From assembly GCF_002943425.1 (NCBI RefSeq), contig NZ_PTRA01000002.1, positions 372,090 to 436,089 of the forward strand: 64,000 nt of DNA, written 5' to 3'. The notes under the pieces are model-generated. The model was not told the DNA's origin, did not search any database, and saw only the letters and a program-made list of their open reading frames with translations. Positions 10,201-50,320 of the stretch are shown piece by piece (within the stretch, counting starts at the first letter, position 1; each line of letters opens with the position of its first letter). Origin of the DNA: Siphonobacter curvatus. GTDB lineage: Bacteria > Bacteroidota > Bacteroidia > Cytophagales > Spirosomataceae. The translations under genes and the position numbers were made by a program.

Positions 10201-10283
10201 CGCATGGAAAATTTTCAGGAATTGTTGAATCCGAGCGTGGTGCCTCCGATCTTCGTTACTTTTTGCATGCTAAATCTATTGTA

Positions 10284-24559: not shown

Positions 24560-24564
24560 ACAAG

Positions 24565-24605
24565 CGGCTTGTCTGGCTACGATCCGGGCAAGCCGTAGTT
24601 TTTTT
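24565..24605 (+). terminator. Intrinsic terminator after acylase A
   Basis: CGGCTTGTCTGG (24565-24576) pairs with CCGGGCAAGCCG (24584-24595) over 12 bp with two G-U pairs. It is followed by TAG and seven T. Confidence 0.85.
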
Positions 24606-24802
24606 GGAACTATACCTACGCGGTGTTATTGTAATCTCCTTAGGTAAGGGGCCGTATTGGATTTACAAGGCCCCACTTAAGCGGGCTAAATCGTTTTTAC
24701 TAACCCAGGAAATCTTTGTATCAGAGCTAGAAAAGCGTTTCGACAGCTGATATCATACCCCTTGGGTACTATTTAAAACCACTTAACAACTCTCTACGAT
24801 TG

Positions 24803-25891: not shown

Positions 25892-25903
25892 ATTACCCAT
25901 TTG

Positions 25904-25940
25904 GAAGAGAGGGGCATTCCCGGCCTCTCTTCTATTCTTC
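25904..25940 (+). terminator. Hairpin between S9-like hydrolase and acylase B
   Basis: GAAGAGAGG (25904-25912) pairs with CCTCTCTTC (25924-25932). A moderately T-rich stretch follows, so this is a weak terminator or attenuator. Confidence 0.5.
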
Positions 25941-25960
25941 CGCTGTAATCCTTCCTGCGT

Positions 25961-28357: not shown

Positions 28358-28370
28358 TCCTACCTGACAG

Positions 28371-32630: not shown

Positions 32631-33791
32631 TCACTGTACCGCTTCGTAAATGCCCGTGTTCTGCCAGCTTCGGGTAGCCGCTGAATCCAGTACAGCCTGA
32701 CATACCCGTTGTGTTTGCAGAGCATCGAGAAAGGTAGGATGACAGGGTTCATCGGTTTCCAGACTTTTTAGAAAATCGGCGACCTGATGCACGAAGCTGT
32801 GTTCGTAGCCTAGCCCCAGACCGGGTACCCACCACTGACTCAGGTAGGGATGTTCGCCATCCGTAACGTGAATGGATCGCCAGCCCCGCAAGGCCGATGC
32901 ATCGCGGTGATCAAAGTATTCCAGTCGGTTCAAATCATGCAGATCCCAGCGGATGGACGCGTGTTCGCCGTTGATTTCAAAGGTATACAACGCTTTGTGG
33001 CCCCGGGCGTATCGCGTGGATTCGAACAAACCGAGCGAACCGTTTTCAAAATGACAGTGAAACAGGCAGGCATCGTCAATACCGACGGCCGTGAGTTCTC
33101 CGGTTTGTTCATGAACCCGCTCTTTGATGAACGTTTCGGTTACCGCTGATACGTCCCGAATCGACCCGTTCAGCCACAAAGCCGTATCAATGCAGTGGGC
33201 GAGTAAATCACCCGTAACCCCCGATCCCGCCGAGGCAACGTCCATTCGCCAGTTTCCTCCCCCCTGTGATAGATTAGCATTTATGGTCCAGTCCTGCAAA
33301 AAATTGGCTCGGTAATGAAAGATACGGCCCAACTGCCCCGAATCGATGATTTGCTTGGCCAGCGTAACCGCGGGCAGGCGGCGGTAATTGTACCAGACCG
33401 TATTGCGAACCCCGGCTTTTTCTACCGCCGCTACCATCGCTTCGGCTTCGGGTAAGGTTCGGGCCAGGGGCTTTTCACACAGAATCATTTTTCCGGCTGC
33501 CGCTGCTGCTAGTGCTATTTCCGCGTGCCACTCGTTGGGTGTACAGATGTCGATGGCATCGATGTCGTCCCGGGCAATCAGGGCCTGCCAGTCCGTTTCG
33601 ACCGAGGCGTAGCCCCATTGCTGAGCAAAATCCGTTACCTTTTCGAGGTTTCGCGAACAGACGGCCTGCAGAACCGGACGATAGGCCAGCTTCGGAAAAA
33701 AATCACCAACCCGTTTATAACCGTTTGAATGCGTACGGCCCATAAAGCCCGTACCAATTAAACCAATGCGGAGTTCTTTGGATGCGTTCAT
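32631..33791 (-). CDS. Gfo/Idh/MocA family oxidoreductase (last gene of locus 2)
   Basis: 386 residues from ATG 33789-33791; a longer frame adds 16 residues without family match. The Rossmann motif [12 protein letters not shown] is at the N-terminus, CEKPLA (EKP motif) is in the middle, and [14 protein letters not shown] carries the catalytic Asp/His pair. No signal peptide is present, so it is cytoplasmic. Family members oxidise or reduce sugar hydroxyls with NAD(P), frequently at C3. As the final gene of a SusCD locus with DUF1080, it probably handles a 3-keto sugar intermediate or reduces it to the free sugar; that is inference from context. Confidence 0.92.
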
Positions 33792-33810
33792 GTGTGTAGG
33801 TAGGAAAAAG

Positions 33811-34839
33811 TTAAGCTTCTGACCAGCCGTGAGCTTCACGTACCTGAATCATCACCGCCAGAATGTCGTTCCAGGTTTGCTGCCGTTGCATTACTTCGTT
33901 GGGAAACATACAGCCATCCCAGCAAATGTGGCGGAAGGCTTTGGTGAGCTGCCCCTTTTCATCCCGCAGCCAGTAGCCCGCATCGTGTACAATGTCGAGT
34001 TTACCCGCGGGGTCCGTGGGTAAACAATGCCGTCCGGTTTTATCGTGCGAGCCCGTTCCGTACACGGTTCCATCGTTTTGGGCCACGTGAAAATCGACCG
34101 TCCAAGGCCGTAGGGTTGCCGTTAGCGTTTGAAGGGCCTCTTGCAGGGTATCGCGGTCACTCCAGTCGAAATCGGGCGGTAAGATGCGATCTTCGGGCCG
34201 GTTCGTTCCCAGCAGATACAGAAGCGTATGCGACATATCCGCCTGAAAACCCAGGTTAGGTCGATCGACGGCTTCCAGCGTTTCGAGCATGGTTTTCCAG
34301 CTGTGCATTCCCCCCCAGCAGACTTCCCCCTCCGCCGCCAGCGTTTCTCCGTATTCGGCGGCAATGTCGCAGGCCCGGCGAAAGGTATCGGCAATTTTTT
34401 GCGTATTCCCTTGCGGGTCCGTGGCCCACTGCTCCGGCGAGCTGGCCGAGTCAATGCGAATGACGCCGCCAGGACGAATCCCGATCTGCCGTAACTTCTG
34501 TCCAAATCGACAGGATTTACGAACCTGTTCCAGAAAAAAGGCTTGCTCCGATGCAGAACCCAGGGCCGGGCCGCCCCAGATGGGAGCCACCAGACTACCG
34601 ACCTCCAGACCAAAGCCGCTAATTTTGTCAGCGAGTGCCTGAATCTCCTGATCGTCGGCATCCAGATTGACGTGCTGCTCGAAGAGACCCAGATCTACGC
34701 CATCGAAGGTAATGCCGTTGACTTCGGCCCCGGCCGTCAGTTCAAGCATGGTATCAAGGGAAAGAATGGGTTCCGAGTCAGGCCCCTTGCCGACAATGCC
34801 GGGCCAGGTAGCGTTATGAAGTTTAGGGAATGTATGCAT
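33811..34839 (-). CDS. Sugar phosphate isomerase/epimerase family TIM-barrel protein, locus 2
   Basis: 342 residues without a signal peptide. It has the xylose-isomerase-like TIM-barrel layout, with an [11 protein letters not shown] strand carrying a metal-binding Glu, [13 protein letters not shown] for the Asp-x-x-His pair, and [15 protein letters not shown] for a late His. These are the acidic/His ligands of the family. Members include epimerases, dehydratases and 3-keto-glycoside lyases/hydrolases. It lies 19 bp before the Gfo/Idh gene. In this setting a 3-keto-sugar epimerase or lyase role is plausible but unproven. Confidence 0.85.
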
Positions 34840-34872
34840 CGTAAATAGGTTCAGAGGATTCGTGAGAAAAAA

Positions 34873-36090
34873 CTAATCAAGTACCAGATCGGGATTGTTG
34901 GGACCGAAGTGTTTGAGCATCACCAGCGGCTCCGTGGCGGAAGCATTGGTAATTACAACACCCGCAAGAGCTGCATTTTCGCTGACAAAAAATTCATCGC
35001 TGGTCAGCTGCCCGTAGCGAATCAGGCTGGGCGTTTCGATGTTCCAGACCCCCAGTTTCCCGTGCCCTTGCATGAGAATGAGTCCATATGCCGCCCCATC
35101 CTGAATGGTTACGGTCTGGCCAGGCAGGACGGTCAATTCTTTAGCACTGAAGGCTTCGGATTTATAGCACACCCAGCTTTCCTGGTAACCTTGCATCGCT
35201 TCCGAATCGCGTACAGCTTTAGGAGCCATGAATCGGTTTTGCATCATCTCCGGGTCCAGATTCAGGTCCCAGTCGATCACTTCCAGGAGCTGTTCTACAT
35301 CCCCGCGACGTTCGGGTGGTGTTCCATTCCAGAGTAGTTCTTCCGGAATAATCGCTTCATTGACCAGGGACTGGTACATGGCGAAAACGTCCGAGGCCTT
35401 TTGCGGTTCGTACGTACACAGGCTACCGGGAGCGTGCAGTAAGCCGGGCGGCACGTCCCAGCCGGTACCGGGTTCGAGCCGGTATGCCTGCGAAAGATTG
35501 GTGATTTTGTTATCGCCTTTGGTAAAATTTTCCAGGCATTGGCGGACCTGCGAATGCGTGGTCCCCGGCGTCAGTCCAAAGAACGTATAGGGAAAGTCTC
35601 CGCCGTGGTTGTTAAGTTGTGGTGGAAAGTAATAAGCCTCTGGTTTACCCAACTGACCGATGAGCCGGGCGTGTTCGTCGTTATGGTGGATGTGATGCGG
35701 CAAGGGTCCCATGTTGTCGAAAAACTTGGAATACATCGGCCAGCTCTGGTATTCATTCCAAAGTCGATCGCCGATTAACGCTCCCTTCAACTCCGCTACG
35801 GCATCCTTCAAAAGAAACTGATGACAGGTTCCGTCTGCTTCGAACACAATCTGACTGAGGCCTTCGTCCTGGCCCGTTAAGGGTCCGTTTTTGGCAGGTG
35901 TCGTCGAAGCCAGCCAGCGTTCATCGATACCACCCCGCTCGCCCCCGAGTACGTAGTAGTCATCGGGATGCAGTTTGATTCGCCGACCCGGTACGCAAAA
36001 AGAGCGGGGCACCCAGGTAGGAGCCAGTCGTAGAATGCCTTGTCCCTGCTCTAAGGCCCGGGCGGCCATGCTTGCTGATGTCATTGTCAT
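34873..36090 (-). CDS. Class I mannose-6-phosphate isomerase-like cupin protein, locus 2
   Basis: 405 residues from ATG 36088-36090; upstream in-frame codons lie inside the neighbouring gene and lack family sequence. A metal-binding cluster PHHIHHNDEHA near residue 130 and GWDVPPGLLHAPG around 230 resemble phosphomannose isomerase-type cupins. The C-terminal ~90 residues form a second jelly roll (LTVLPGQTVTIQDGAAYGLI). It lacks an obvious phosphate-binding signature, so an unphosphorylated sugar may be the substrate. It sits between the DUF4432 and TIM-barrel genes with only 8 bp to the former, as part of one operon. Confidence 0.75.
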   Translation of the reverse strand: MTMTSASMAARALEQGQGILRLAPTWVPRSFCVPGRRIKLHPDDYYVLGGERGGIDERWLASTTPAKNGPLTGQDEGLSQIVFEADGTCHQFLLKDAVAELKGALIGDRLWNEYQSWPMYSKFFDNMGPLPHHIHHNDEHARLIGQLGKPEAYYFPPQLNNHGGDFPYTFFGLTPGTTHSQVRQCLENFTKGDNKITNLSQAYRLEPGTGWDVPPGLLHAPGSLCTYEPQKASDVFAMYQSLVNEAIIPEELLWNGTPPERRGDVEQLLEVIDWDLNLDPEMMQNRFMAPKAVRDSEAMQGYQESWVCYKSEAFSAKELTVLPGQTVTIQDGAAYGLILMQGHGKLGVWNIETPSLIRYGQLTSDEFFVSENAALAGVVITNASATEPLVMLKHFGPNNPDLVLD

Positions 36091-36098
36091 AATAAGGT

Positions 36099-37160
36099 TT
36101 AGTGGTATGGCATGAAAAGCGTTTCCAGAGCCCGCGGATCCGTCAGAACCTCTATTTCCAGTTCGTACCAACGACGTTCACCGGGTTCGAGCCAAATCAG
36201 TTGCCGGGTTGCTCGGGCCTGGTTCTGACCCACTGGTGGGTGAGTTCCGGGTTCAAGGCCCGTCACGTACTCGCCCTTTCCCCAATGTTGCCAGTTGGTC
36301 AACCAGGGAAGCTGTTGTTTATAAAAGCGAATGACGAGTGCCAATCCTAACGCTTTGTTATATACGCCGCATTGACATTGCCCTGCGTCATCCGCTTCCA
36401 GATTAATAAAGGCTACTTCCTCCCCCGCCCCGGCGTGGGCGTCCAGGGGGGCGGGACAGGTACGAAAATCGTGCTCGGGCCGAAACAGCTGCGGGTGACC
36501 TGAACCCGCCTCCCAGGAACCCCGCCAAAGGAGGCGGGCACCCTCGTCGATGAGCGGCCAGCCCAGATTGATATGGTACAGCAGCATGTGCGGAGCCGTA
36601 GTGTTACCCCGATTGACTATTTCGTCCCGCAAGCGAAGACTGGCTTTTCCCAACGTTGACGAAAGGGTACGGCTTAGTTCCAACCGTGTACCTAAGGCCT
36701 GACTTTGACGAATCCGCCCGCGTACGCTCATAACCAGCTGACCCGTGAATGGATCGGGTTGCGTGATACATTCGAGTTCTGCGGGTGTATTGCTGAATGT
36801 ATCGTGCAGACCGCGTTCCCCCCATTCGTCGCTTTCCGGACCACCTACGTGCGTCAATCCACAGGTAGTCAGCAGGCCGCCCCCGAAGGTTCGCAGCCAG
36901 CCCAAACCCCGGTTAGAAAAGGGCTGCGGCGTGGTAACGCCCCCGTGACTCAGCCAGGCCAGACTGTGTTGCTGGTAAAAAGCCTCGGCAATATCCATTC
37001 CCCGATCCAGTACTACTTTGTACCGCAGTCCCGCTCCGGTATTCACCCAGGCGATTCGATTCCCCCGTCCGGGTCCGTTATCCAGTACGGACGTTTCGAT
37101 GCCACCCAGTTGGGCGGGATTGGAAATTTTGTCCCGGCTCCGCTGATCGATTCCTGCCAT
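36099..37160 (-). CDS. DUF4432 family protein (aldose 1-epimerase-like), locus 2
   Basis: 353 residues, cytoplasmic. The features LDRGMDIAEAFYQ, LAWLSHGGV, GGLLTTCGLTHVGG and MLLYHINLGWPL are the usual DUF4432 pattern. The family has the beta-sandwich fold of galactose mutarotase. It may interconvert anomers of the imported sugar or of its keto derivative. It begins 3 bp after the DUF1080 stop, showing tight translational linkage. Confidence 0.9.
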   Translation of the reverse strand: MAGIDQRSRDKISNPAQLGGIETSVLDNGPGRGNRIAWVNTGAGLRYKVVLDRGMDIAEAFYQQHSLAWLSHGGVTTPQPFSNRGLGWLRTFGGGLLTTCGLTHVGGPESDEWGERGLHDTFSNTPAELECITQPDPFTGQLVMSVRGRIRQSQALGTRLELSRTLSSTLGKASLRLRDEIVNRGNTTAPHMLLYHINLGWPLIDEGARLLWRGSWEAGSGHPQLFRPEHDFRTCPAPLDAHAGAGEEVAFINLEADDAGQCQCGVYNKALGLALVIRFYKQQLPWLTNWQHWGKGEYVTGLEPGTHPPVGQNQARATRQLIWLEPGERRWYELEIEVLTDPRALETLFMPYH

Positions 37161-37163
37161 GGT

Positions 37164-37913
37164 TTACAAGGTTTTTAGCCGGAGATTCCGATATTCGACT
37201 TTCATGGGCGGACCTACGTGTACCTGCACCCCTAGTAAACCCGCTTTTTTGCCATTTACCGTATCCAGGTCGGTCACGTCACTCATCAATACTCCATTGA
37301 TAAAATGTTGCAGGCGATTCCCTTTCACAATCAGGTGAAATTCATTCCAATCCTCGGTTTTGATACGGCTTTGCAGAGCTTCCGCTTCCCCCAGCGATTT
37401 CTCAACCGTCAGCATTGTCCAGGCATTGTTTTTAACCAGTTCGCGGACGTTTCCCTGCGTAAAGGGCTGAATGCGAGTTTGCTGGCCCCGGTACGCGAGC
37501 GTCGTGCGGCCTCGTTCCTCGTAATTCTGCCCCGTGTATTTGTTTTGGCCATCGATATCTGCCTGATAGCCTTTCAGGGCGTAGGGTACTTCCGGGACGC
37601 GTTCACTGCGGTAATTGATGCCCGAATTCCCATCCTTGGTAATCCGAAAGATGCCCTTCAATTCAAAATCCGCCGGTTGCTGTTGCTGCCAGATCAGGAA
37701 AGTATTAGTTTTCAGAAGAGTAGTAGGCGTTACCTCGCCCACCAGCGTACCGTTTTCGATCCGCCAGTAGGTGGGATCACCTTCCCAGCCTTCCAGCGAT
37801 GATCCGTTCAACAGGGGTACAAAACCGGATTCGGTGGTCTGGGCCCAGCCTTCGGGGCTACCGATCCAAAGTCCGAAGAAGAGTAGGAGCGTAATTCGTG
37901 CGTGTCGTTTCAT
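37164..37913 (-). CDS. DUF1080 (3-keto-disaccharide hydrolase family) secreted protein, locus 2
   Basis: 249 residues with a signal peptide (1-25, ending GWAQ). The concanavalin-like DUF1080 domain follows: LLNGSSLEGWEGDPTYW, then FRITKDGNSGINYRS, which is the signature GNSGI-YR of the family, and ALKGYQADIDG. Some DUF1080 enzymes of Bacteroides cleave 3-keto-glycosides. Its export places it in the periplasm with the CxxCH dehydrogenase-like protein, 7 bp upstream, which could supply the keto substrate. This pair is the basis for the oxidative-cleavage proposal. Confidence 0.88.
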   Translation of the reverse strand: MKRHARITLLLFFGLWIGSPEGWAQTTESGFVPLLNGSSLEGWEGDPTYWRIENGTLVGEVTPTTLLKTNTFLIWQQQQPADFELKGIFRITKDGNSGINYRSERVPEVPYALKGYQADIDGQNKYTGQNYEERGRTTLAYRGQQTRIQPFTQGNVRELVKNNAWTMLTVEKSLGEAEALQSRIKTEDWNEFHLIVKGNRLQHFINGVLMSDVTDLDTVNGKKAGLLGVQVHVGPPMKVEYRNLRLKTL

Positions 37914-37920
37914 AGGTCGA

Positions 37921-40626
37921 TTATTCGTTACCCCCCGCCGTTTTGGGTTGATATACTTCGTGTTGTGGATTGCCGGACGACTTTAAAAACGCCATCAGAT
38001 CCTTGAGTTCTTCCGCATTGAGTCCATTGATCAAGCCCGGAAGCATCATCGACACTGAGGAATATTTGGTAGATGTAACGTTCTTCTTGGGAATCTTCTG
38101 AACCTGCTCCGGAGCAAAGGGATTCTGCGAGATGGTATAGCTGGTCTTATCTTCGTTCACCAGCCGTCCCACCAGCGACTTGCCATTTTTCAGGGAAAAG
38201 ATGGTCGAAGCGTACTGATCGGAAACGGTTTTGTCCGGGTCAATGATGGCTTCTAAAATATCTTTGTTGGAAAAGCGAGTGCCCAGCTGAGTTAAATCCG
38301 GACCAATGTCACCGCCTTCGCCCCGCAGGGTATGGCACCGACTGCACAGAATGGCCGAGTAGAGGTTTTTACCCCGATCGAAATTGCGAAGGTTCAGGCC
38401 ACTATCCACTACCGCCAGGGCGTCGCTCGTCTTCCAGTTTCGACCTGGTCCCTGTAAGGTATAATTGCTGGCCAGTTCATTCCCCGACCGACCGATCAGT
38501 CCTTCCCCCGAAAGTTTGTTGTAGCGATCAAACTGCTCTTTGGGTACTTGGGATAGGGCCATTTTCCGGGCCTTATCAATGAAACCAATGTAACTGCGAC
38601 CACCCTGGTACTGAAACGCCTGGGCAAACCATTTGAAGTACTGCGACCGTAGTTCCGATGTCCAGCCCGTTTGCTGGCGACTGAGCATTACGGCATAAAA
38701 AGTCTGCTGGGCGGGGGGTATTTTTTCCAGCATCTTGGCAATGTCCAGTCCATATTGCGGATTACGCAAAATCAGATCGGAAGAACTGGTAGCGGCAATA
38801 CCGCCCAGGGTCTGACTGCCGGGTTCTTCTTTCTGACGCATCAGGGCCAGCGTTTTGGGGGCCGCCTGCGGGGATTCCAGGGCGATCAGTAGCTTGCTCA
38901 AGCCCCGGTTGAGTACAGCACTGCGGGCGGGATACAGTGGTTCTAGAATAGACAGTAAGCGAGTTTTTTCCGGAGCCGTTGGCGTGCCCAGGCGTAGCAG
39001 TACCAATTCATGCACCCGAAGCCAGTCTACCTGCTGAGCTTCATTAAGCCGCTCGAATTTGATTTTTGCCAGAGCTTCGAGTACCTGACTCTTCAGGTTA
39101 GCCGGGGCCTGTCGGGTCAGGGCCAGCAGGGCCTGAAGCGAACGTTGCGGATCGGATTCCTGCAAGGCTTTTTCCTGCCATTGGGCTACGGGCTGATGCT
39201 CCAGAGCCAGACGGGCCGCGTACCGGACAAATCGATCCGAGTGGTTAAGATGGGGCCAGGCTACATCTACGGCCTGCGGCTGAGCCTTTTCGTGAAAGGC
39301 CTCCAGCTGGCGGCGAAGCTGCTGTTCAGAGGTTAGCGAAGCGGTTACGGCTTTAGGTTCCTCCACAGCCCCCTGATAGGAGACCCGGTACAGATCAGAT
39401 TCGAGCCGACGTCCGCCCGTTAGGAAATACAGAGCACCATCCGGCCCAATAAGTCCATCCGTCAGGGGCAGAGCCGGTCCGGAAATAAATTCTTCCAGTT
39501 GGGCTTCGTAGCTGGCTCCTTTTGGCTTAAGCTGTACGGCGTAGATGATGCCGAAACTCCAGTCGAAAGCAAATAAAGCGTTCCGGTATTTTTCGGGAAA
39601 ACGGGCGGAGCCTCCGTGGATGAGGTTCGTAGGTGAGCCTTGTCCAACATTTACGACGGGCGGTAAATTATCCGGATACGCCGGCAGCCATTTGCCATTA
39701 CCCGTTCGCCAGCCAAACTCCGCCCCACTCGTTACGTGGCAGATGCGGGTGGGCCGGTACCAGGGCAGTCCGAAATCCCATTCCATATCCGAGTCGTACG
39801 TGAACAGTTCGCCCGCTTCGTTGAAGGCCAGATCGAAGGGGTTCCGAAAACCCGCCGCGACGAGTTCCCAGTTCGAACCCAGCGAGTCGATGTGGGCAAT
39901 CCACCCCCCCGGTGCCATCCGGTCTACGGCGTGTCCTCTCGGATCTTTGATCGTGGGCAGCAGGTTATCTTCCTGCCAATTTTTGGGTAGTCGATAGCTG
40001 TTCATTTCGGGTACGTCCGTATGATTTCCCGCGATGACGTAGATGGACTGCTTGTCTGGAGCCAATACCAGGCTATGCGGACCGTGTTCACCTTCCCCTT
40101 TCAGGGATTTCAGCAAAGTAATTTTATCAAACTGATCATCACCATTGGTATCCTGAAGCCGATACAGGCCGCTGCCTTTGTCGAAGTTCTTGTCACTCTC
40201 GTGGTTTACCATGACATACAGGCTGTTAAAAGCCCAGAGTAAACCCTGAGCGTAGCCCATTCGAACTTTCGTTTTGACTGAATCGGGTACGTTGGCATCC
40301 GGTAATTGAATCGGCAGGGGCTCCACCCTTGGTTTCGCATCCGGTACTCCCAGCGGCGGAATTTCCAGGCGATAGAGGTAGCCATACTGATCGGCAGTAA
40401 TGAGTCGGCCTTTTCCATCAAAGGTCATCGCCACCCACGAACCCTGCTTCTGCTCCGAGGGGCTGTAGAGGTGTTCCGCTTTGAATCCGGCGGGTAGTTT
40501 GAGTTTTTTGACTTTCGGATGTTCAGGCTCCGGGGCCTGAACGATCCAGGCAGTCGAGCCCAGGATCCCCAACAGCAGCAGTCCATACATGAGCGTCTGC
40601 CTGGTAAAAAAAGAGGGTAAAGCCAT
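37921..40626 (-). CDS. PVC-type heme-binding CxxCH protein, sorbosone/glucose dehydrogenase-like with cytochrome c domain
   Basis: 901 residues. A hydrophobic export signal spans 14-33. The N-terminal ~410 residues are a six-bladed propeller like L-sorbosone/glucose dehydrogenases (VAMTFDGKGRLITADQYGY, GWIAHIDSLGSNWELVAAG, GFRNPFDLAFNEAGELF). The middle is helical and HEAT-like. The C-terminus is a class I cytochrome c with C761-S-R-C-H765 and a probable Met ligand at 860/861 in SMMLPG. It likely oxidises a sugar hydroxyl in the periplasm and passes electrons through its own heme to the respiratory chain. It is placed between SusD and DUF1080 in the same operon. Confidence 0.9.
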   Translation of the reverse strand: MALPSFFTRQTLMYGLLLLGILGSTAWIVQAPEPEHPKVKKLKLPAGFKAEHLYSPSEQKQGSWVAMTFDGKGRLITADQYGYLYRLEIPPLGVPDAKPRVEPLPIQLPDANVPDSVKTKVRMGYAQGLLWAFNSLYVMVNHESDKNFDKGSGLYRLQDTNGDDQFDKITLLKSLKGEGEHGPHSLVLAPDKQSIYVIAGNHTDVPEMNSYRLPKNWQEDNLLPTIKDPRGHAVDRMAPGGWIAHIDSLGSNWELVAAGFRNPFDLAFNEAGELFTYDSDMEWDFGLPWYRPTRICHVTSGAEFGWRTGNGKWLPAYPDNLPPVVNVGQGSPTNLIHGGSARFPEKYRNALFAFDWSFGIIYAVQLKPKGASYEAQLEEFISGPALPLTDGLIGPDGALYFLTGGRRLESDLYRVSYQGAVEEPKAVTASLTSEQQLRRQLEAFHEKAQPQAVDVAWPHLNHSDRFVRYAARLALEHQPVAQWQEKALQESDPQRSLQALLALTRQAPANLKSQVLEALAKIKFERLNEAQQVDWLRVHELVLLRLGTPTAPEKTRLLSILEPLYPARSAVLNRGLSKLLIALESPQAAPKTLALMRQKEEPGSQTLGGIAATSSSDLILRNPQYGLDIAKMLEKIPPAQQTFYAVMLSRQQTGWTSELRSQYFKWFAQAFQYQGGRSYIGFIDKARKMALSQVPKEQFDRYNKLSGEGLIGRSGNELASNYTLQGPGRNWKTSDALAVVDSGLNLRNFDRGKNLYSAILCSRCHTLRGEGGDIGPDLTQLGTRFSNKDILEAIIDPDKTVSDQYASTIFSLKNGKSLVGRLVNEDKTSYTISQNPFAPEQVQKIPKKNVTSTKYSSVSMMLPGLINGLNAEELKDLMAFLKSSGNPQHEVYQPKTAGGNE

Positions 40627-40645
40627 GACGGTTTCGGAAGATTAG

Positions 40646-40691
40646 GGCAAGGTCTCCCTCCCTTTCCATAGGTCGGAAAGGAGGCCTTGCC
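40646..40691 (-). terminator. Hairpin between SusD and the CxxCH gene (partial terminator/processing site)
   Basis: GGCAAGG...CTTTCC (40646-40667) pairs with GGAAAGG...CCTTGCC (40674-40691), with a few bulged bases. It sits between susD and the downstream enzyme genes, where SusCD operons often reduce downstream expression. No U-tract is evident. Confidence 0.5.
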
Positions 40692-40709
40692 TGCGTAACA
40701 TCAAATGAA

Positions 40710-42182
40710 TTACCAGCCCGGATTCTGCTCAAAACCATTGAGCCGGATTTCCCGCTGGGGAATCGGATATAGCAGCATGTAATCCTGCACATTGAAGGCA
40801 GCCGCACTCAGGCGGGGTAGTCGCTTTTTCTCCTCGACACCGTGAGCATTCATTACCGTCTGTGCCCGTCCGGTTCGCAGGAGGTCAAACCAGCGGTGGT
40901 TTTCAAAAGCCACCTCTACCCGTTGCTCGTGATACACTGCTTCACGAAAGGCCGTCTGACTCAGACCCGCCAGCGGAGCCAGCCCCGCCCGTTGACGAAC
41001 GGGATTCAGGTACTGGTACGCCGCAGCCGTTTGTCCCGTTTCATTCAGAGCTTCCGCCAGCATGAGCATCACATGACTATAGCGATATACGGGCCAGTTG
41101 TCGTCCGTTCGGCCCTGTAGCTTGAAGGGTGGATGAAAGAATTTTTTGATGTAAGGCAGCGAATCCTGGCCAAACGCTTCCGAATACTTGTCATTACCGG
41201 CATCAATGTAGTACCCAATGGAAGCGTCCCGCCGTTTGTCTCCTTTTTCGTAGGCCTGAAAAATATTCCGCGTGGGAATGTTCATACCACCCAGATTGCC
41301 CTGAAAAGTCGTGAGTGGCACACCGGCGTTATACGGTCCAAAGGAGTAGATAAAGTTGCTGCTCTCCCCTTCCATATCGGCGTTGTACTGCACTTCAAAG
41401 ACTGATTCGGAATGGTTCTTATTTGTCGTCGCAAATACACTGGCGTAATCGCTGACCAGTGTATAGCCCTTGACCTGTTCGAAGGAGGCGATGGCTTTCG
41501 CGTAATCTTTCCGCGTCAGGTACACGTGTCCCAGTAAGGTATGAGCGGCCCCCTTCGTAGCCCGACCGACGTTTTGGCCCGTATACGTTTGCGGCAATTG
41601 GTTCGCCGCATCCTGCACGTCGCTGATAATTTGCTGGTAAATGTTGTCGACGCTGGCTTTTTCCGCCGTAAAGGCCTGTTCAGGTCCGGCAATTTCCTTC
41701 GTAATCAGCGGAACGGAGCCGAATAAACGTACCAGATAAAAGTAGTGCACCGCCCGCAGGAATTTAGCCTCGCCCACGTACTGGGCCTTGAGGCTTTCGT
41801 CCTTAAATGGAACCGCATCTATCCGGCTCAGGATGACATTGGACTGCATGACGCCCTTGTACAAGGCAGCCCAGACATTCTGCACGTAATTGTTGGAAGA
41901 ATTAATCAGGAACTCGTCAATTTCCTCCCGTTGCTGGACCCCGCGATCACTTTCGTTGAACTGGTACGTGGTGTTATCCGATCGCATTTCAGCCATCGCG
42001 TACAGATCTCCCGTGTATAAACCCTGGAGCTGCCCGTAGGCTCCGTTGACGGCTTTTAACACCTGATCTTCCGTGCTATAGTACTTGTCACCACTCGTAA
42101 AGCTGTGCGGATTGACATCGAGTGCTTGCTGGCAGGCCGTCAGGCTCAACAACAGGGCTGCGAACAAAAGGTATGTTTTCAT
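40710..42182 (-). CDS. SusD/RagB family outer membrane lipoprotein, locus 2
   Basis: 490 residues. The lipoprotein signal ends LSLTAC with C17. The TPR-rich SusD body includes AKFLRAVHYFYLVRLFGSVPLI and ends with QREIRLNGFEQNPGW, classical for the family. It is the substrate-binding lid for the SusC upstream (20 bp gap). Together with the enzymes of the operon it should capture a carbohydrate or glycoside. Confidence 0.95.
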   Translation of the reverse strand: MKTYLLFAALLLSLTACQQALDVNPHSFTSGDKYYSTEDQVLKAVNGAYGQLQGLYTGDLYAMAEMRSDNTTYQFNESDRGVQQREEIDEFLINSSNNYVQNVWAALYKGVMQSNVILSRIDAVPFKDESLKAQYVGEAKFLRAVHYFYLVRLFGSVPLITKEIAGPEQAFTAEKASVDNIYQQIISDVQDAANQLPQTYTGQNVGRATKGAAHTLLGHVYLTRKDYAKAIASFEQVKGYTLVSDYASVFATTNKNHSESVFEVQYNADMEGESSNFIYSFGPYNAGVPLTTFQGNLGGMNIPTRNIFQAYEKGDKRRDASIGYYIDAGNDKYSEAFGQDSLPYIKKFFHPPFKLQGRTDDNWPVYRYSHVMLMLAEALNETGQTAAAYQYLNPVRQRAGLAPLAGLSQTAFREAVYHEQRVEVAFENHRWFDLLRTGRAQTVMNAHGVEEKKRLPRLSAAAFNVQDYMLLYPIPQREIRLNGFEQNPGW

Positions 42183-42202
42183 CGGTTTAGAGCGTCAGAT
42201 CG

Positions 42203-45200
42203 TTAAAAACTAAGATTCGTACCTACGGTGAAAATGCGGGGAACGGGATAGCTGGAGTAGTCTACGCCGGGTACCAGGGTGCCAGATTTACTACCCGAAT
42301 TACCATAGTTCTGCACTTCGGGGTTGCCCGTATAATTGGTAATCAGGATGGCGTTCTGGGCCGATACGTAAAAGCGAGCACTGCGAATGACTTTCCCGAT
42401 GCCTTTGCTCAGGTTATAACCCAGGGTGATATTTTTTATCCAGGCGTAATCATTGTCTTCCACCCACAACGAGCTGACATCCCGGAACATCACCCGGCCC
42501 CGTCCTGAGCCATTGGTCGTCGGAATACGACCATTGCCGGGCTGTTCGGGCGATCGCCAGCGGTCTTTAATGTCGCGGGTGACGTTAAAGACGCCATCAA
42601 TGTTGTGCAGGTATTCATAGGCCGTATGCAGCCGTTGCCCGCCCACGGAACCGGTGACGAGGACGCGTAGATCAAAGTTTCGGTAATTGAGCGTATTGGT
42701 CAGACCCCAGGTAAACTTGGGATAGGGATTGCCAATAACATCGAAATCATCCACCGGCGTAATGACGCCATCACCGTTGACATCTTTTACCCGCATGTTG
42801 CCGGGTACGGCACCGGGAAAGGCTGGTCCCGCGTTGATTTCTTCCTGACTCTGGTACAGGCCATCAAATACGTAGCCATAGAAAAGTCCCAGCGGTCGGC
42901 CCAGCATAGTGATGTTGGTCGGATTGCCCTCACCACTTACGCCGGACAGAATCGGACGGTCGCTACGACCCAGAGCGAGTACTTTATTGCGGTTGAAGGC
43001 AATGTTGAAATTCGTCGTCCAGCCAAAAGAACCCCGCGAAATGTTTCGGGACGTAATAGCCAGCTCGACGCCCTTGTTCTGTACGTTGCCCCGGTTTTCC
43101 ATTACCGAGCCAAACCCCGAGGACTGCGGAATCTCTACATTCAGTAACAGGTCTTCCGTATTGCGGCGGTAAAAATCCGCCGTGATGTAAAAACGATCAC
43201 TCAGCAAGCCGAAATCGAAGCCGACGTTCAGCTCATGCATCCGTTCCCAGCCCAGTCGGGGATTTCCCAGCGTTTCCATTTGACGACCACCCACCAGCGT
43301 TCCGCCCAACACGTAGTTATTGGAAATCATCTGGCTCAAGTAGGTGTAATTACCGATTTCGAAATTTCCCGAAACGCCGTAGGAGGCCCGCAGTTTCAGG
43401 TCACTAATCCAGTTGACGGGTTTTAAAAATTCCTCCTGCGAAATTCGCCAGCCCAGAGCCGCCGATGGGAAAATACCCCAGCGGTTGTCCTGCCCAAAGC
43501 GGGAGGAGCCGTCTCGCCGGAGGGTGGCCGTCAGCAGGTACTTGTCGCGATAGGCGTAATTCAGGCGGGCGAGATAGGAAAGTAACGACCAGTCTTCCTG
43601 ACCCGTACTGCCCGTAATGCGAGCGGCGGCGTTAAAGGTTTTTACGTCGTCATCGGGGAAATTTTCACCGTTAAACGAGGCTCCTTTATTGGTCTGCTGC
43701 TGAATGGTGAAACCCAGCAGAGCCGTCAGGGAGTGGACTTCGCTGAAGGTGGTCTGGTACGTCAGCGTATTTTCGTTAAGCCAGTTCTGGTACGAATTGC
43801 GGTTATAGCGGGCTGTAGGAATGGTGGGCGGATTCTGGTTGAGGTATCCAATCGTGGAGGGGTGGAAGTATTCGGCCCGTCCGTCCTGCCAATCCGTATT
43901 GAACGTCGTTTTGAACTTCAGATTTTTCACGGGTTCGTATTCGGCGTAGGCGTTGATGAGCACCCGCGTACTATTTGAGTAATCATCCACTTCGTTAAGT
44001 ACCATCACCGGATTTGGGTAATTGAAGGTTCCATCGCTCTGAATCATGGGATTGTAGGAACCATCCGACAGGTACACGGGTGGCAAGGGACTGGCCACCA
44101 AGCCTTCACCGAAACCCTGTTCCCCCCGTCCCGCACCGCCGAAAATACCGCGTTGCCGACGGGTAAACGTGGGAGCCAGATTCACCCCGACCCGCAGTTT
44201 ATCGCTTAGCCGACCATCAATGTTGGCTCGCAGGGAAAACCGCTGAAAGCTCGTCCCCGTCACGACACCGTCCTGCTGAAAAAAGCCAGCCGATACGTAG
44301 GTATTCAGGTTTTCGTTACCGCCACTCAAACTTAGGTTCACGTCCGTCATCGGTGCTACGCGAGTCATGGCTTCAAACCAGTTGGTACCCTTGCCTAACC
44401 GCTCCGGATTACGGTACTGCTCTGGAATGTCCGCATCCGTAGCTTCCCGGTTTTGTTCCGCCCGAATCCGATCCGAAATGGCTTCCTTACGAAACTGAGC
44501 GAATTCCTGAGCGTTCATCAAATCCGGCTTTCCTTTATTGGGAATTTGCTGTAAGCCCGTGTATACGCCCACTTGTACGTTGGTTTTTCCGGTCTTTCCC
44601 CGTTTGGTCGTAATCAAAATGACGCCATTGGCTCCCCGGGAACCGTAGATGGCCGTAGCCGAGGCATCTTTCAGTACGGTGATGGATTCAATATCCTGCG
44701 GGGGAATGTCATTGATGGGATTGGACGTTTGATTGGAGGTCGTAGAAAGGGGAAACCCATCGACCACGTACAGTGGCTGACTGCCCCCTCCAACGGCTCC
44801 GATGCCGCGTACCTGAATCTGTGGTCCACCCCCCGGCACCCCGTTGGAAGAGCTGATCTGTACCCCGGCGATTTGTCCGGACAGGGATTGATCCAGGCCC
44901 GCTACGGGCATTTCCTTGACGTTTTTCATGGAAATAGACGCCACAGAACCCGTTACATCCTGAGCCCGCTGAGTACCGTACCCCACGACCACCACTTCAT
45001 TGAGAGCACTGGCATCGGCTTTCAGCACGACATTCAGACTGGTACGACTCCCCACCGTAATTTCCTGCGGGGTAAAGCCGACGAAGGAAAAGACCAACAC
45101 GGCGTTTTCATCCGGGACGCGGAGGCGATACTGCCCCTTCACGTCCGTAGCGACACCCCGCTGGGTGCCTTTGACCAGAATATTTACGCCGGGCAGGGGT

Positions 45201-45595
45201 TCGCCTTTTTCATCCGTTACCGTTCCGGAAACCTCCGTATCCACGGCCGTACGGGGAGCCGAAGGCGACTGCCGGATTAGAATAATTTGTTGAGCTTCCA
45301 CCTTATACTCTACTTGTAGCGGGCGAAGCAATTGGTCGAGTACTCTGGACAAAGGCAGGTTTTGAGCCTGTACGGAGACTTTTGGCGTGGAGCCGAACAA
45401 AGAGGATTGGTAGGTAAACCGTACTTCGGCCAGTTTGCTCAGCTGTTGCAGTACTACTTTTACATCCTGATTCACGAGATTGAGTGAAATCCTGCGTTGC
45501 AGTACTTCCTGATCGGCCGAGTCATTCGCGTACGCTCCGCAATAGCTGGCGAATACCCACAAGACAATACAGGTAGAAGTAAGCCATTTTTTCAT
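42203..45595 (-). CDS. SusC/RagA TonB-linked outer membrane receptor with STN domain, locus 2
   Basis: 1130 residues from ATG 45593-45595; the longer frame adds 16 residues that would spoil the signal peptide (cleavage near AYA-ND, 24). The STN domain is at about 30-100 (ISLNLVNQDVKVVLQQLSKL). The carboxypeptidase-regulatory-like domain is at about 118-195 (VSGTVTDEKGEPLPGVNIL). A TonB-box-like VVVGYGTQ follows, then the plug (LYVVDGFPLS) and the barrel. The STN domain indicates signalling to the FecR protein upstream. It forms a transport pair with the SusD gene 20 bp downstream. Confidence 0.95.
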   Translation of the reverse strand: MKKWLTSTCIVLWVFASYCGAYANDSADQEVLQRRISLNLVNQDVKVVLQQLSKLAEVRFTYQSSLFGSTPKVSVQAQNLPLSRVLDQLLRPLQVEYKVEAQQIILIRQSPSAPRTAVDTEVSGTVTDEKGEPLPGVNILVKGTQRGVATDVKGQYRLRVPDENAVLVFSFVGFTPQEITVGSRTSLNVVLKADASALNEVVVVGYGTQRAQDVTGSVASISMKNVKEMPVAGLDQSLSGQIAGVQISSSNGVPGGGPQIQVRGIGAVGGGSQPLYVVDGFPLSTTSNQTSNPINDIPPQDIESITVLKDASATAIYGSRGANGVILITTKRGKTGKTNVQVGVYTGLQQIPNKGKPDLMNAQEFAQFRKEAISDRIRAEQNREATDADIPEQYRNPERLGKGTNWFEAMTRVAPMTDVNLSLSGGNENLNTYVSAGFFQQDGVVTGTSFQRFSLRANIDGRLSDKLRVGVNLAPTFTRRQRGIFGGAGRGEQGFGEGLVASPLPPVYLSDGSYNPMIQSDGTFNYPNPVMVLNEVDDYSNSTRVLINAYAEYEPVKNLKFKTTFNTDWQDGRAEYFHPSTIGYLNQNPPTIPTARYNRNSYQNWLNENTLTYQTTFSEVHSLTALLGFTIQQQTNKGASFNGENFPDDDVKTFNAAARITGSTGQEDWSLLSYLARLNYAYRDKYLLTATLRRDGSSRFGQDNRWGIFPSAALGWRISQEEFLKPVNWISDLKLRASYGVSGNFEIGNYTYLSQMISNNYVLGGTLVGGRQMETLGNPRLGWERMHELNVGFDFGLLSDRFYITADFYRRNTEDLLLNVEIPQSSGFGSVMENRGNVQNKGVELAITSRNISRGSFGWTTNFNIAFNRNKVLALGRSDRPILSGVSGEGNPTNITMLGRPLGLFYGYVFDGLYQSQEEINAGPAFPGAVPGNMRVKDVNGDGVITPVDDFDVIGNPYPKFTWGLTNTLNYRNFDLRVLVTGSVGGQRLHTAYEYLHNIDGVFNVTRDIKDRWRSPEQPGNGRIPTTNGSGRGRVMFRDVSSLWVEDNDYAWIKNITLGYNLSKGIGKVIRSARFYVSAQNAILITNYTGNPEVQNYGNSGSKSGTLVPGVDYSSYPVPRIFTVGTNLSF

Positions 45596-45718
45596 AATAG
45601 GTACTGTTTTACGGTTTAGAGTAGATACAATACTTCCCTGCATCCCGGCAAGGGATGTACTAGAGACGAAAAATGAACTGAAGCTGGGTTCGAGGTCTAT
45701 CGTGGATTTTAGCCCGCA

Positions 45719-46741
45719 CTACGGTGTACAGCCGTCGCTCTGGATAAATACCTGTCCTCCTTTCACCTGGTAAGTGGCCCCGATGGCCTGACAAATGGCA
45801 CTTAAACGTTCCTGAAGATTTTCTTCTTTAAAAGAGGTATTGATGGAACAGTTGCGAAGCTGTTCGGCATTGTAATTGATTTTGACACCAAACTGACGTT
45901 GCAGTTCTGCCAGTACCCGGGGCACCGGAGCGTTGTCAAACGTCTGTTCCCGGAACACGGCTCGTTTTTTAACCAGCGTGATTTTATCCAGACGGTCCAG
46001 CCGTTTGTCGTACGTAAGCTGTTCCTGCGGATTCAGAATCGTCGGTACAGCGGTACTCGTTCGTACCCGTACCCCGACCCGGCCACTGCGTACCTGAACC
46101 ACCGTTTTCTGGGTTTGGGGCCGGGCGTAAATCCAGAAACTCGTACCTAACACTTTTGTACTCAATTCAGATGTGTACACGACGAACGGATGATTCGGGT
46201 CTTTAGTAATGTCAAAGAAAGCATCGCCGTAGAGCTGTACTGCCCGTTTATCCTTCGGAAACTGCACCGGATACCACAAACGACTATTCTTTTCCAAGGT
46301 TACTACACTGCCGTCCGGTAACAGTACCGTGACGGGTTCTTTTCCTGGATTGGTTTTCAAGGCCCAATGCAGGGAAGCAGGTTCGGGCGTCACGGGTTTT
46401 TCCGGCCAGATCCACCACCCCAGTCCCGCCACAATCAGCAGCACCGCCGCCCACCGGACCCAGGTAAACACTCGCAATCGACGCAGGGGTTGTACTACCA
46501 CGCGTTCCCTCAGCTTTTCCAGTTCCAGCTGTACCTCAGCCTGCGGAACGGGTTCGGCGTAATGGGCGTAAATTTCCTCCAGAAACAGGCGGGCCTGACG
46601 AATCACGTACTCCTGTTCCGGATGCATCGTAAGGTACTCTTGCCAGAACAAAGCCTGTGACCCGGCCGGATCACGTACCCAGTGACGAAAGGATTCGTCC
46701 TGAATAAAATCACGGGCTTCAAAATTCTGGTATTTTTTCAT
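45719..46741 (-). CDS. FecR family anti-sigma factor, locus 2
   Basis: 340 residues from ATG 46739-46741, nine codons inside the longest frame. An N-terminal cytoplasmic domain of ~100 residues is followed by a membrane helix (WAAVLLIVAGLGWWIW), the FecR domain (VLLPDGSVVTLEKNSRLWYP, VLGTSFWIYARP) and a DUF4974 tail (VPRVLAELQRQFGVKINYN, ending QVFIQSDGC). There is no homopolymer tract here, unlike its counterpart in locus 1. It controls the sigma factor encoded 83 bp upstream and senses the STN domain of SusC. Confidence 0.92.
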   Translation of the reverse strand: MKKYQNFEARDFIQDESFRHWVRDPAGSQALFWQEYLTMHPEQEYVIRQARLFLEEIYAHYAEPVPQAEVQLELEKLRERVVVQPLRRLRVFTWVRWAAVLLIVAGLGWWIWPEKPVTPEPASLHWALKTNPGKEPVTVLLPDGSVVTLEKNSRLWYPVQFPKDKRAVQLYGDAFFDITKDPNHPFVVYTSELSTKVLGTSFWIYARPQTQKTVVQVRSGRVGVRVRTSTAVPTILNPQEQLTYDKRLDRLDKITLVKKRAVFREQTFDNAPVPRVLAELQRQFGVKINYNAEQLRNCSINTSFKEENLQERLSAICQAIGATYQVKGGQVFIQSDGCTP

Positions 46742-46824
46742 GAAAAAATAAAACAGTGCACGTTTCAATAGTAGAGTGTGCGGTAGCCGCAGAACCTAAC
46801 CAAAAACGATGAAAATTTTTTGAA

Positions 46825-47436
46825 TTAATTTTCGGGGAAAGGAAAACTCAACGCATTCGCTACCCAAAGAACACCTCCCACGACCCAAGCATTGCGGAGT
46901 TCCTTGAGCGAACGGGACAGCAGATTATAGACGCTCTGGTGGTTGAGTTGCATGATCTCCGCAATCTGATCGTGCGAGAGACCTTCGTAATAATGTAGAA
47001 AAATAATTTCCCGCTGCCGGGGAGACAGCGATTCCAGAGCTTTGGTCAGACGCAGATGATATTCTTCCTGGGTTTCCTGATGGATGAGCAGCGATTCTAC
47101 CCCCAGCTCCTCACTACCTAAGGATTCCGGATACGCTTCGTGCGAATACCCCGATTGCTGCCGGTAAGATCGGTAGATTTTGTTTCGCAGGATGGCAAAC
47201 AGGTAGGCTTTAATATCCTCGGGTTTCGGCAATGACTCGCGTCGGGTCCAGAGTTCTAGGAAAAGCTCCTGTAGTAAATCTTTGACGAGCTCCCGATCAC
47301 GTTCCAGCTTTAGCCCGTAATTCAGCAGAGCCGCATAATACCACTCCGCTACCTGATTTAAGGCAGCCGAATCCCCCTGGCAAAGCTGTAGCCATACGTG
47401 CTGGGCCTCTAAGGAGTGGGGATGCTGGGAAATCAA
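46825..47436 (-). CDS. ECF RNA polymerase sigma factor, locus 2 (TTG start)
   Basis: 203 residues. Region 2 (LVKDLLQELFLELWTRRESL, followed by KAYLFAILRNKIY) and region 4 (SLSPRQREIIFLHYYEGLSH, DQIAEIMQLNHQSVYNLLSR) are complete. The reading frame has no ATG before the sigma domain: it opens with TTG at 47434-47436 and a stop lies two codons upstream, so a TTG start is required. A hydrophobic C-terminal tail (AWVVGGVLWVANALSF) is unusual but occurs in some Bacteroidota homologues. It leads locus 2. Confidence 0.9.
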   Translation of the reverse strand: MISQHPHSLEAQHVWLQLCQGDSAALNQVAEWYYAALLNYGLKLERDRELVKDLLQELFLELWTRRESLPKPEDIKAYLFAILRNKIYRSYRQQSGYSHEAYPESLGSEELGVESLLIHQETQEEYHLRLTKALESLSPRQREIIFLHYYEGLSHDQIAEIMQLNHQSVYNLLSRSLKELRNAWVVGGVLWVANALSFPFPEN

Positions 47437-49182: not shown

Positions 49183-49183
49183 A

Positions 49184-49215
49184 AAAAAGCCAGTCGCAGC
49201 TACGACTGGCTTTTT
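49184..49215. terminator. Bidirectional terminator between katA and oxyR
   Basis: AAAAAGCCAGTCG (49184-49196) pairs perfectly with CGACTGGCTTTTT (49203-49215) around a 6-nt loop, with U-tracts in both directions. Confidence 0.92.
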
Positions 49216-49234
49216 GTAATCCTATCACAAGTGA

Positions 49235-50143: not shown

Positions 50144-50320
50144 GGGAGTAAACGACTTGAGTATGAATGGGTATTTCGCCGAAAATGAAAGGAACGGTAG
50201 CAACGGAGGAGTCGTAAATAAGCTGGAGGACCGGACTACACCTGAGAAATGACAGATTGGGTAGGCTTCAAAAGCAAGCGGTACGTTACTACCGTTCATT
50301 GAACGGATGTCATGCCCCTC

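Follow-up and report, generated by a model that had tools for sequence, protein, structure and literature searches.

A conserved SusCD-linked gene module of Siphonobacter curvatus as a candidate oxidation-elimination route for L-rhamnose-containing glycosides

Organization and conservation of the locus

A window of 64,000 nucleotides from Siphonobacter curvatus (the whole stretch analyzed; contig NZ_PTRA01000002.1, positions 372,090 to 436,089) contains a row of ten genes (window positions 32631-47436) that includes the SusC and SusD pair of a SusCD polysaccharide utilisation locus, a gene for an exported protein with a CxxCH heme motif and several genes for putative sugar-converting enzymes. 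In agreement with the initial annotation, open reading frames (ORFs) for all 10/10 genes were found on the minus strand, with gaps of at most 83 bp. In transcription order, the row begins with an ECF-type sigma-70 factor (46825..47436; 203 aa from TTG; TIGR02937, 96.0 bits, cut-off 42.9; PF08281, 61.5 bits) and a FecR-type anti-sigma factor (45719..46768; 349 aa; PF04773, 59.8 bits; PF16344, 51.3 bits), followed by a SusC-type TonB-dependent transporter (42203..45643; 1146 aa; TIGR04056, 921 bits, cut-off 368), a SusD-type surface lipoprotein (40710..42182; 490 aa; PF07980, 130 bits; PF14322, 107.8 bits) and the exported CxxCH protein, a candidate periplasmic sugar oxidase (37921..40626; 901 aa; heme domain TIGR02603, 101.4 bits, over the cut-off of 68.15). 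Next come a DUF1080 family protein (37164..37913; 249 aa; PF06439, 120.4 bits, cut-off 26.8), a DUF4432 protein that may be a mutarotase-like enzyme (36099..37160; 353 aa; PF14486, 319.7 bits), a cupin-like protein with conserved His and Glu positions, a candidate metal-dependent sugar isomerase (34873..36090; 405 aa), a xylose-isomerase-like TIM barrel, by its alignment and Pfam match a candidate lyase/hydratase or epimerase (33811..34839; 342 aa; PF01261, 51.6 bits, cut-off 31.1), and a Gfo/Idh/MocA oxidoreductase (hereafter Gfo) resembling levoglucosan dehydrogenase in its family and PDB matches, which may act as a keto-sugar reductase or dehydrogenase (32631..33791).

The successive gaps measure 56, 75, 20, 83, 7, 3, 8, 33 and 19 bp, the last three being computed with corrected starts, as comparison with relatives placed the start of the cupin gene probably at 36090 instead of the ORF start at 36171, and that of the Gfo gene probably at 33791 instead of 33839. 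Judging from this spacing, the ten genes may be co-transcribed; a scan of the locus gave no more promoter-like or terminator-like sites than a comparison with shuffled sequence would lead one to expect (6 vs 10.8 and 20 vs 18.1, respectively, neither regarded as above shuffles). As initially reported, the ten proteins include no classical glycoside hydrolase, judged by Pfam and NCBIfam searches at E 0.001, and the Pfam scan revealed no GMC protein among them.

Conservation was analyzed in two sets of loci, one made up of the best 80 of at least 591 confirmed relatives of the CxxCH protein, some of these loci ending at contig ends, and the other of 40 loci centred on the cupin, from 291 Cytophagales genomes. 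The nearest relatives of the CxxCH protein lie in other Siphonobacter loci (98-99% identity). Within the CxxCH-centred set, DUF1080 accompanied the protein in 55/80 loci, SusC and SusD in 46/80 each, the cupin in 38/80, and DUF4432, TIM barrel and Gfo in 37/80 each. The five genes CxxCH, DUF4432, cupin, TIM and Gfo occurred jointly in 32 of the 80 loci, 31 of which also carried DUF1080 and 20 both SusC and SusD. Genera with this complete set include Spirosoma, Larkinella, Fibrisoma, Chryseolinea, Flavobacterium and Chitinophaga, the last with DUF1080 placed at the end of the module. The gene order for which relatives were to be searched thus recurs in many genera, Cytophagales among them, and because the same genes return in the same arrangement across so many genera, the set is more than a chance assembly. 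The part from SusC to Gfo is a conserved module. The ten genes as a whole, initially treated as one unit, are not, since the sigma factor was present in only 6/80 and FecR in only 8/80 CxxCH loci. Outside Siphonobacter, the nearest SusC proteins are Chitinophaga copies (62-64% identity), and for SusC and SusD together six Chitinophaga loci are nearest (60-64%), the next ones listed reaching at most 43%. Alignments took in the CxxCH protein of the window with those of 62/80 loci, and 28/36 cupin, 24/35 TIM, 24/37 Gfo, 23/37 DUF4432 and 27/55 DUF1080 sequences.

In the cupin-centred set, DUF4432 and Gfo were each found in 39/40 loci, TIM in 37/40 (two of the three misses being ORF-picking artefacts, with the TIM gene found in genomes G100 and G114), DUF1080 in 35/40 and CxxCH in 24/40. 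In the 16/40 loci without an adjacent CxxCH gene, the DUF4432-cupin-TIM-Gfo core was still intact, and a full-length CxxCH copy was encoded elsewhere in all 16 genomes, as it was in the 8 further genomes tested (24/24). DUF4432-cupin-TIM-Gfo is therefore the stable core, and CxxCH a frequent but movable partner. An ABC importer (ATPase and permease) adjoins the core in 17/40 cupin loci, with best matches to xylose and ribose systems; none is among the ten genes of the window.

Co-occurrence extended to whole genomes. Among the 291 Cytophagales genomes, 64 contained both cupin and CxxCH, 1 the cupin only, 9 CxxCH only and 217 neither (Fisher 3e-53), and outside the family of S. curvatus the corresponding numbers were 23, 1, 8 and 213 (Fisher 2e-24); these values, like the binomial one given below, overstate independence because the genomes are related, and they are not event counts, which tells against the interpretation built on them. 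Seven weak cupin matches (E 1e-5 to 1e-8, in G032, G103, G117, G142, G154, G192 and G256) were excluded before counting. The 65 cupin genomes kept include G082, 75% complete, in which the gene is split over three matches, and G097, in which it is fragmentary with stops and which is the sole cupin-positive genome without CxxCH. The TIM protein was found at E 1e-100 in 62 genomes, every one with both cupin and CxxCH.

Some neighborhoods depart from this pattern. In seven loci without CxxCH (L116, L126-L128, L130, L131 and L140), DUF1080, two extra TIM barrels and an alpha/beta hydrolase precede DUF4432, in some cases with ThuA, and the alpha/beta hydrolase with one of the extra TIM barrels also occurs in L161, L177 and L178. 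The neighborhoods of L107, L116 and L127 contained FIST, histidine kinase, GH130-like, fasciclin, FG-GAP, esterase-like, TIM, ThuA and alpha/beta hydrolase proteins; a known oxidase replacing CxxCH was not found in them, nor were GMC oxidases, and the argument that such an oxidase substitutes for CxxCH fails for this reason. A PSCyt1/DUF1549/DUF1553 protein followed by DUF1501, a gene pair known from Planctomycetes, often precedes the module (e.g. L026:750-4568, L155 and L165), the DUF1501 cluster being present in 17/80 CxxCH and 9/40 cupin loci.

Linkage to L-rhamnose catabolism

A new finding is that, in relatives, genes of L-rhamnose catabolism adjoin the module or share a same-strand array with it. 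These encode a bifunctional rhamnulose-1-phosphate aldolase/dehydrogenase (TIGR02632, 957 bits, cut-off 568), RhaT (546 bits, cut-off 468), a rhamnose isomerase (TIGR02629, 506 bits, below the cut-off of 647) and a kinase with a weak match to rhamnulokinase (69 bits, cut-off 528). In genomes G272, G213, G223 and G055, the aldolase is the first gene of a same-strand array with SusC-SusD-CxxCH-DUF1080-DUF4432-cupin-TIM-Gfo-ABC importer, from which a regulator diverges, with kinase or PSCyt1/DUF1501 genes after the aldolase in some of them. In G004 it heads SusC-SusD-CxxCH-DUF1080, the core lying some kilobases further. In another class, the DUF1080 and CxxCH genes of locus L176 are separated by the aldolase and a partial kinase, all on one strand, and the aldolase and kinase of L178 are oriented divergently to the module; no aldolase or kinase was found within the stretches of L177 and L179. 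Among the Chitinophaga loci close to the SusC and SusD of the window, L064 and L072 carry RhaT, and L074 carries aldolase and kinase. Some aldolase-linked stretches were picked for an aldolase already known to be nearby, and serve as illustration and not as independent evidence.

At the genome level, the TIGR02632 aldolase was present in 67/73 CxxCH-positive vs 43/218 CxxCH-negative Cytophagales (Fisher 4e-29) and, outside the family of S. curvatus, in 25/31 positive vs 39/214 negative genomes. It was located at most 20 kb from CxxCH or cupin in 13/67 genomes and at most 50 kb in 16, with a binomial value of 5e-10 that is itself rough, its null being a generous uniform placement; as positions were available for CxxCH in 67 genomes and for the cupin in 30/65, the numbers of genomes with a nearby aldolase are minimum values. 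For the family of loci, a substrate containing L-rhamnose is well supported, and it may be extended to the locus of the window. The substrates initially suggested (trehalose, sucrose and C-glycosides) give way to L-rhamnose, to which the neighborhoods point instead.

A number of observations run counter to this assignment. Only 10/80 CxxCH and 3/40 cupin loci contain any of the rhamnose genes for aldolase, isomerase, kinase or RhaT with a score of at least 200 bits. The aldolase was not within 20 kb in 54/67 genomes, was present in 46/46 genomes of the family of S. curvatus, and was absent from six CxxCH-positive ones. Rhamnose isomerase, kinase and aldolase are all lacking among the ten genes of the window, and the sole aldolase match of the S. 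curvatus genome lies on contig C1 whereas the module is on C2, so that the substrate in this organism is deduced from its relatives. A linked glycoside hydrolase had initially been named as evidence that would speak against the pathway; the module of the window has none, but in 7/80 CxxCH loci, all seven from Flavobacteriia, with DUF1080 and without the cupin, a sulfatase fused to an alpha-L-rhamnosidase domain is encoded, so that release of rhamnose by a hydrolase may coexist with the module.

These observations leave some room for a different sugar, e.g. an inositol-like or glucose-type glycoside, with rhamnose genes as neighbors because degraders of plant material cluster such loci. TIM, Gfo and cupin would also fit inositol-type pathways (Gfo gave 118 bits to IolG, and one extra TIM protein of Dyadobacter-like loci scores to IolE), and both the unlinked aldolase of S. 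curvatus and the six genomes without one agree with this possibility. Nevertheless, linkage to rhamnose genes recurs in several Cytophagales families, in Chitinophaga, in Flavobacteriaceae and in another class, partly as one same-strand array, and we consider a different sugar quite unlikely.

The CxxCH propeller-cytochrome

The CxxCH protein consists of a propeller (residues ~44-417), helical (HEAT) repeats (~430-700) and a heme c domain (~740-885) with the CxxCH motif at 760-764. An AlphaFold2 model had a mean predicted local distance difference test score (pLDDT) of 82.5 and a predicted template modelling score (pTM) of 0.82. In structural searches with VIA-align, the five best rows were all sugar dehydrogenases, 3a9g, 2ism, 7cgz, 3das and 7cdy (Z 25.8, 25.7, 24.9, 24.7 and 24.2, respectively), with 284-299 residues aligned to the propeller at a root-mean-square deviation of 2.5-2.9; 2g8s followed at Z 23.5, level with a lactonase at 23.3, and other propellers scored 20-23. 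The PF07995 model did not match the protein at E 0.001, and alignment of its profile with hhalign to four PF07995-type proteins of the same genome gave a probability of 92 (E 5.6e-7). Taking profile and predicted fold together, the propeller is homologous to those of sugar dehydrogenases dependent on pyrroloquinoline quinone (PQQ). The heme domain matches the diheme protein Kustd1711 (7zs0, E 7e-16). Proteins of the PVC type (TIGR02603/TIGR02604) are similar in this C-terminal domain, which scored over the cut-off, whereas the N-terminal part of the window protein remained under that of TIGR02604 (66.5 bits, cut-off 122.2).

Residues H180, R260 and N261 were invariant in 63/63 CxxCH sequences and align with conserved positions of the sugar dehydrogenases, the catalytic His and an Arg-Asn pair, the pairing of H180 being our reading of a gapped alignment. 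Of 99 invariant propeller residues, 80-81 persisted in the divergent homologues L176 and L177 from another class, and 75 propeller positions were common to the 63 aligned sequences and four more distant ones. By contrast, an R-x-R stretch near the last blade, which is present in 7cdy, 2g8s, 2ism, 3das and 3a9g and in L145-L147 from the S. curvatus genome, and whose arginines we take to be PQQ contacts, is replaced by P-L-T-D (P386 in 59/63, L387 in 60/63, T388 in 63/63 and D389 in 63/63 sequences). The likeness to the PQQ-dependent soluble enzymes therefore comprises the fold (Z 23.5-25.8) and the His and Arg-Asn positions, and the differences comprise the missing R-x-R, the fused HEAT and heme c parts and a similarity below PF07995 detection. 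A plain PQQ enzyme, although favored by the fold, was rejected as the default because of this replacement, and since the PQQ-type arginines are missing, the oxidizing cofactor is not assignable as PQQ, a difficulty for any scheme that begins with this protein. A search with a pqqC model was uninformative, with matches in 0/20 genomes and in 0/14 controls. In our reading of the sequences, strong selection has preserved an active site in the propeller that departs from the standard PQQ site.

The loss of the arginines would also fit a protein that serves only as electron acceptor or sensor, the oxidation being carried out by a LacA-type GMC flavoprotein encoded elsewhere in an otherwise LacABC-DUF1080-like pathway. 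Three PF13618 (Gluconate_2-dh3) matches over cut-off in the S. curvatus genome may represent LacA-type small subunits; one of them adjoins the C-terminal part of an apparent GMC oxidoreductase recognized by eye, and LacABC acting with DUF1080 is described in PMC9007349. However, the module of the window contains no GMC or LacA-type gene, and the 75 propeller positions kept across classes, including H180, R260, N261 and a DSDMEWD stretch, exceed the needs of a passive carrier; a purely accessory role is thus improbable in our judgment. Also rather unlikely is a bolder proposal, namely that the CxxCH protein founds a class of respiratory glycoside dehydrogenases, with a propeller that lacks the PQQ arginines, uses another cofactor or a differently bound quinone and is linked through HEAT repeats to its own heme c, and that it would open L-rhamnosides without a rhamnosidase, DUF4432-cupin-TIM-Gfo constituting a new route from keto-rhamnose to L-rhamnose.

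In several Dyadobacter-like genomes, a second TIGR02603-like heme protein of ~1150 aa lies within ~10 kb of the aldolase, with the module elsewhere; in G281, for example, the aldolase is at C1:5353304 and the heme-domain match at C1:5362499 (frame of 1150 aa).

A possible pathway and its relation to known systems

The remaining enzymes contribute to the interpretation to different degrees. PF06439 (DUF1080) is now named '3-keto-disaccharide hydrolase', and the DUF1080 protein of the module has an N-terminal signal-like stretch that makes it a candidate periplasmic cleaving enzyme. As the S. curvatus genome has 18 DUF1080 matches, 17 of them over cut-off, such a protein is not by itself diagnostic of a keto-glycoside pathway. 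The same genome gave 15 PF07995 matches (14 over cut-off), and appears rich in possible keto-glycoside enzymes when DUF1080, PF07995 and PF13618 matches are considered together. DUF4432 is presumably related in fold to mutarotase; a literature search on this family yielded only unrelated-looking work. The initial description of the cupin as mannose-6-phosphate-isomerase-like found no support, because no Pfam or NCBIfam family matched at E 0.001 and the nearest named PDB match of a truncated form of 387 aa, a mannose-6-phosphate isomerase, was not significant (E 0.17). Nonetheless, the cupin is the most conserved protein of the set, with 76-82% identity to 28 relatives and conserved positions H132, H133, H135, H136, E151 and H219. 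Distant cupin relatives in another class of the phylum (L167 and L170-L174, ~220-253 bits) stand in a conserved but different gene row, by eye a set of the flavin adenine dinucleotide (FAD) or nicotinamide adenine dinucleotide (NAD) type, in which phmmer found no other genes of the module, and in L168 and L169 only the cupin was recognized. Being set among other genes, these eight relatives give no functional clue. The Gfo protein scored 324.2 bits to the levoglucosan dehydrogenase model NF052479, under the equivalog cut-off of 650, and its PDB matches were 4h3v (E 1.9e-98) and 6a3f (E 1.6e-77).

We tentatively propose, with confidence somewhat short of even, that the locus serves the uptake and breakdown of L-rhamnose-containing glycosides, with oxidation and elimination taking the place of a hydrolase. 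The genes, their conservation and genome-wide co-occurrence, the rhamnose linkage in relatives and the propeller fold are established by this analysis; the reactions, deduced from family names, their order, the direction of Gfo and the substrate in S. curvatus itself are inferred. SusCD would bring the glycoside into the periplasm, where the CxxCH propeller-cytochrome would oxidize a ring hydroxyl (C3 by analogy) and pass the electrons through its heme c to the respiratory chain, and DUF1080 would split the resulting keto-glycoside. The freed keto-sugar would enter the cytoplasm, in many relatives perhaps by an RbsABC-like ABC importer for monosaccharides whose genes follow directly, to be anomerized, isomerized or hydrated by DUF4432, cupin and TIM barrel and reduced by Gfo to L-rhamnose, the substrate for isomerase, kinase and aldolase. 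Oxidation-elimination, already suggested in the initial annotation, fits best because the locus encodes a periplasmic DUF1080 protein, a secreted sugar-dehydrogenase-like heme protein and a set of cytoplasmic TIM, DUF4432, cupin and Gfo enzymes retained jointly across genomes; a first oxidant of the plain PQQ type is unlikely. The CxxCH protein is a candidate for the oxidizing role and, as oxidant, the weakest link of the pathway. Two further points weigh against the scheme. The structure prediction for the cupin was poor (pLDDT 56.7, from 29 very similar sequences). In locus L129 (G069:C7:427800-447700), CxxCH and cupin are adjacent at 6552-10636 in a stretch that lacks DUF4432, TIM and Gfo, and TIM and aldolase were not found in the G069 genome at the thresholds used; this minimal pair, which is followed by an AraC-type regulator, is not explained by the proposed pathway.

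The Gfo protein itself offers another first oxidant. The glycoside could be imported whole, oxidized at C3 with NAD in the cytoplasm and cleaved there by the TIM-barrel protein, CxxCH and DUF1080 serving a separate periplasmic step or another substrate. Since Gfo is nearest to NAD dehydrogenases that oxidize an intact glycoside in the cytoplasm (levoglucosan dehydrogenase being its best match), CxxCH would be needless as first oxidant, a further argument against our proposal, and the persistence of the DUF4432-cupin-TIM-Gfo core without adjacent CxxCH in 16/40 loci points in the same direction. In the levoglucosan pathway, as given in PMC7676230, LgdA oxidizes, LgdB1 eliminates, LgdB2 hydrates and LgdC reduces, LgdB1 and LgdB2 being annotated as sugar phosphate isomerases and LgdC as Gfo/Idh/MocA, so that both the sequence of reactions and the Gfo- and TIM-barrel-annotated enzymes recall the module. 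On the other hand, that pathway is cytoplasmic, depends on NAD and needs two Gfo-type enzymes where the core has one gene, and DUF1080, CxxCH and SusCD are not mentioned in the text available (PMC7676230). Considering also that the Gfo score lies far under the equivalog cut-off, that cupin and CxxCH co-occur in 64/65 genomes, which speaks against separate roles, and that the linked importer resembles monosaccharide systems, we regard initial oxidation by Gfo as unlikely.

Returning to the proposed periplasmic route, its closest counterparts use related enzymes in other combinations. The BT2156-BT2159 cluster of Bacteroides reportedly acts on keto-glycosides with DUF1080, TIM-barrel and Gfo/Idh proteins, as the module would, whereas the Gfo protein of the window scored far below the NCBIfam cut-offs for BT_2159 (33.1 bits, cut-off 650) and BT_2158 (29.5 bits, cut-off 750), and SusCD, CxxCH, DUF4432 and cupin are additional in the window. 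BT2157 is named as 3-ketotrehalose hydrolase in PMC9007349. The same source proposes, with genetic data from Caulobacter, that LacABC is a lactose 3-dehydrogenase, bound to the membrane and active in the periplasm, which cooperates with a DUF1080 protein of that compartment, and extends the proposal to Bacteroidetes (PMC9007349). The order of periplasmic oxidation and DUF1080 cleavage is alike in both systems; LacABC adjoins DUF1080 and acts on lactose, whereas the window locus lacks a GMC gene, has the propeller-HEAT-heme c protein instead and is predicted to act on rhamnosides. A glycoside C3 dehydrogenase assayed with ferricyanide is likewise described in PMC10628242. The novelty initially claimed for a respiratory-linked first oxidation shrinks accordingly, because C3 oxidation in the periplasm coupled to DUF1080 has already been published for LacABC, and oxidation linked to respiration rather than to NAD is no new principle. 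A literature search whose coverage left out most subscription journals found nothing joining DUF1080 with PVC-type CxxCH proteins or rhamnose with 3-keto and SusD, and nothing on 3-keto-rhamnose.

Other genes of the window surround the module. Divergent from the sigma gene, a catalase-like protein and a LysR-type regulator were recognized by eye (47704-50299), and two penicillin-amidase family proteins form a row with a prolyl-oligopeptidase-type protein and a beta-lactamase-type protein at 22355-29540. An (alpha/alpha)6-type glycoside hydrolase (PF22422, PF03633) is encoded at 58067-59923, ~11 kb off beyond other genes and outside the unit.

If the proposal is true, it would provide a substrate and a testable pathway for DUF4432, for the highly conserved cupin and for the CxxCH propeller-cytochrome, and environmental Bacteroidota would have a second way, besides GH78-type rhamnosidases, to dismantle rhamnosides. 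The presence of rhamnose catabolism genes beside the module would offer a direct genetic read-out, making the role of the CxxCH protein in sugar oxidation testable.

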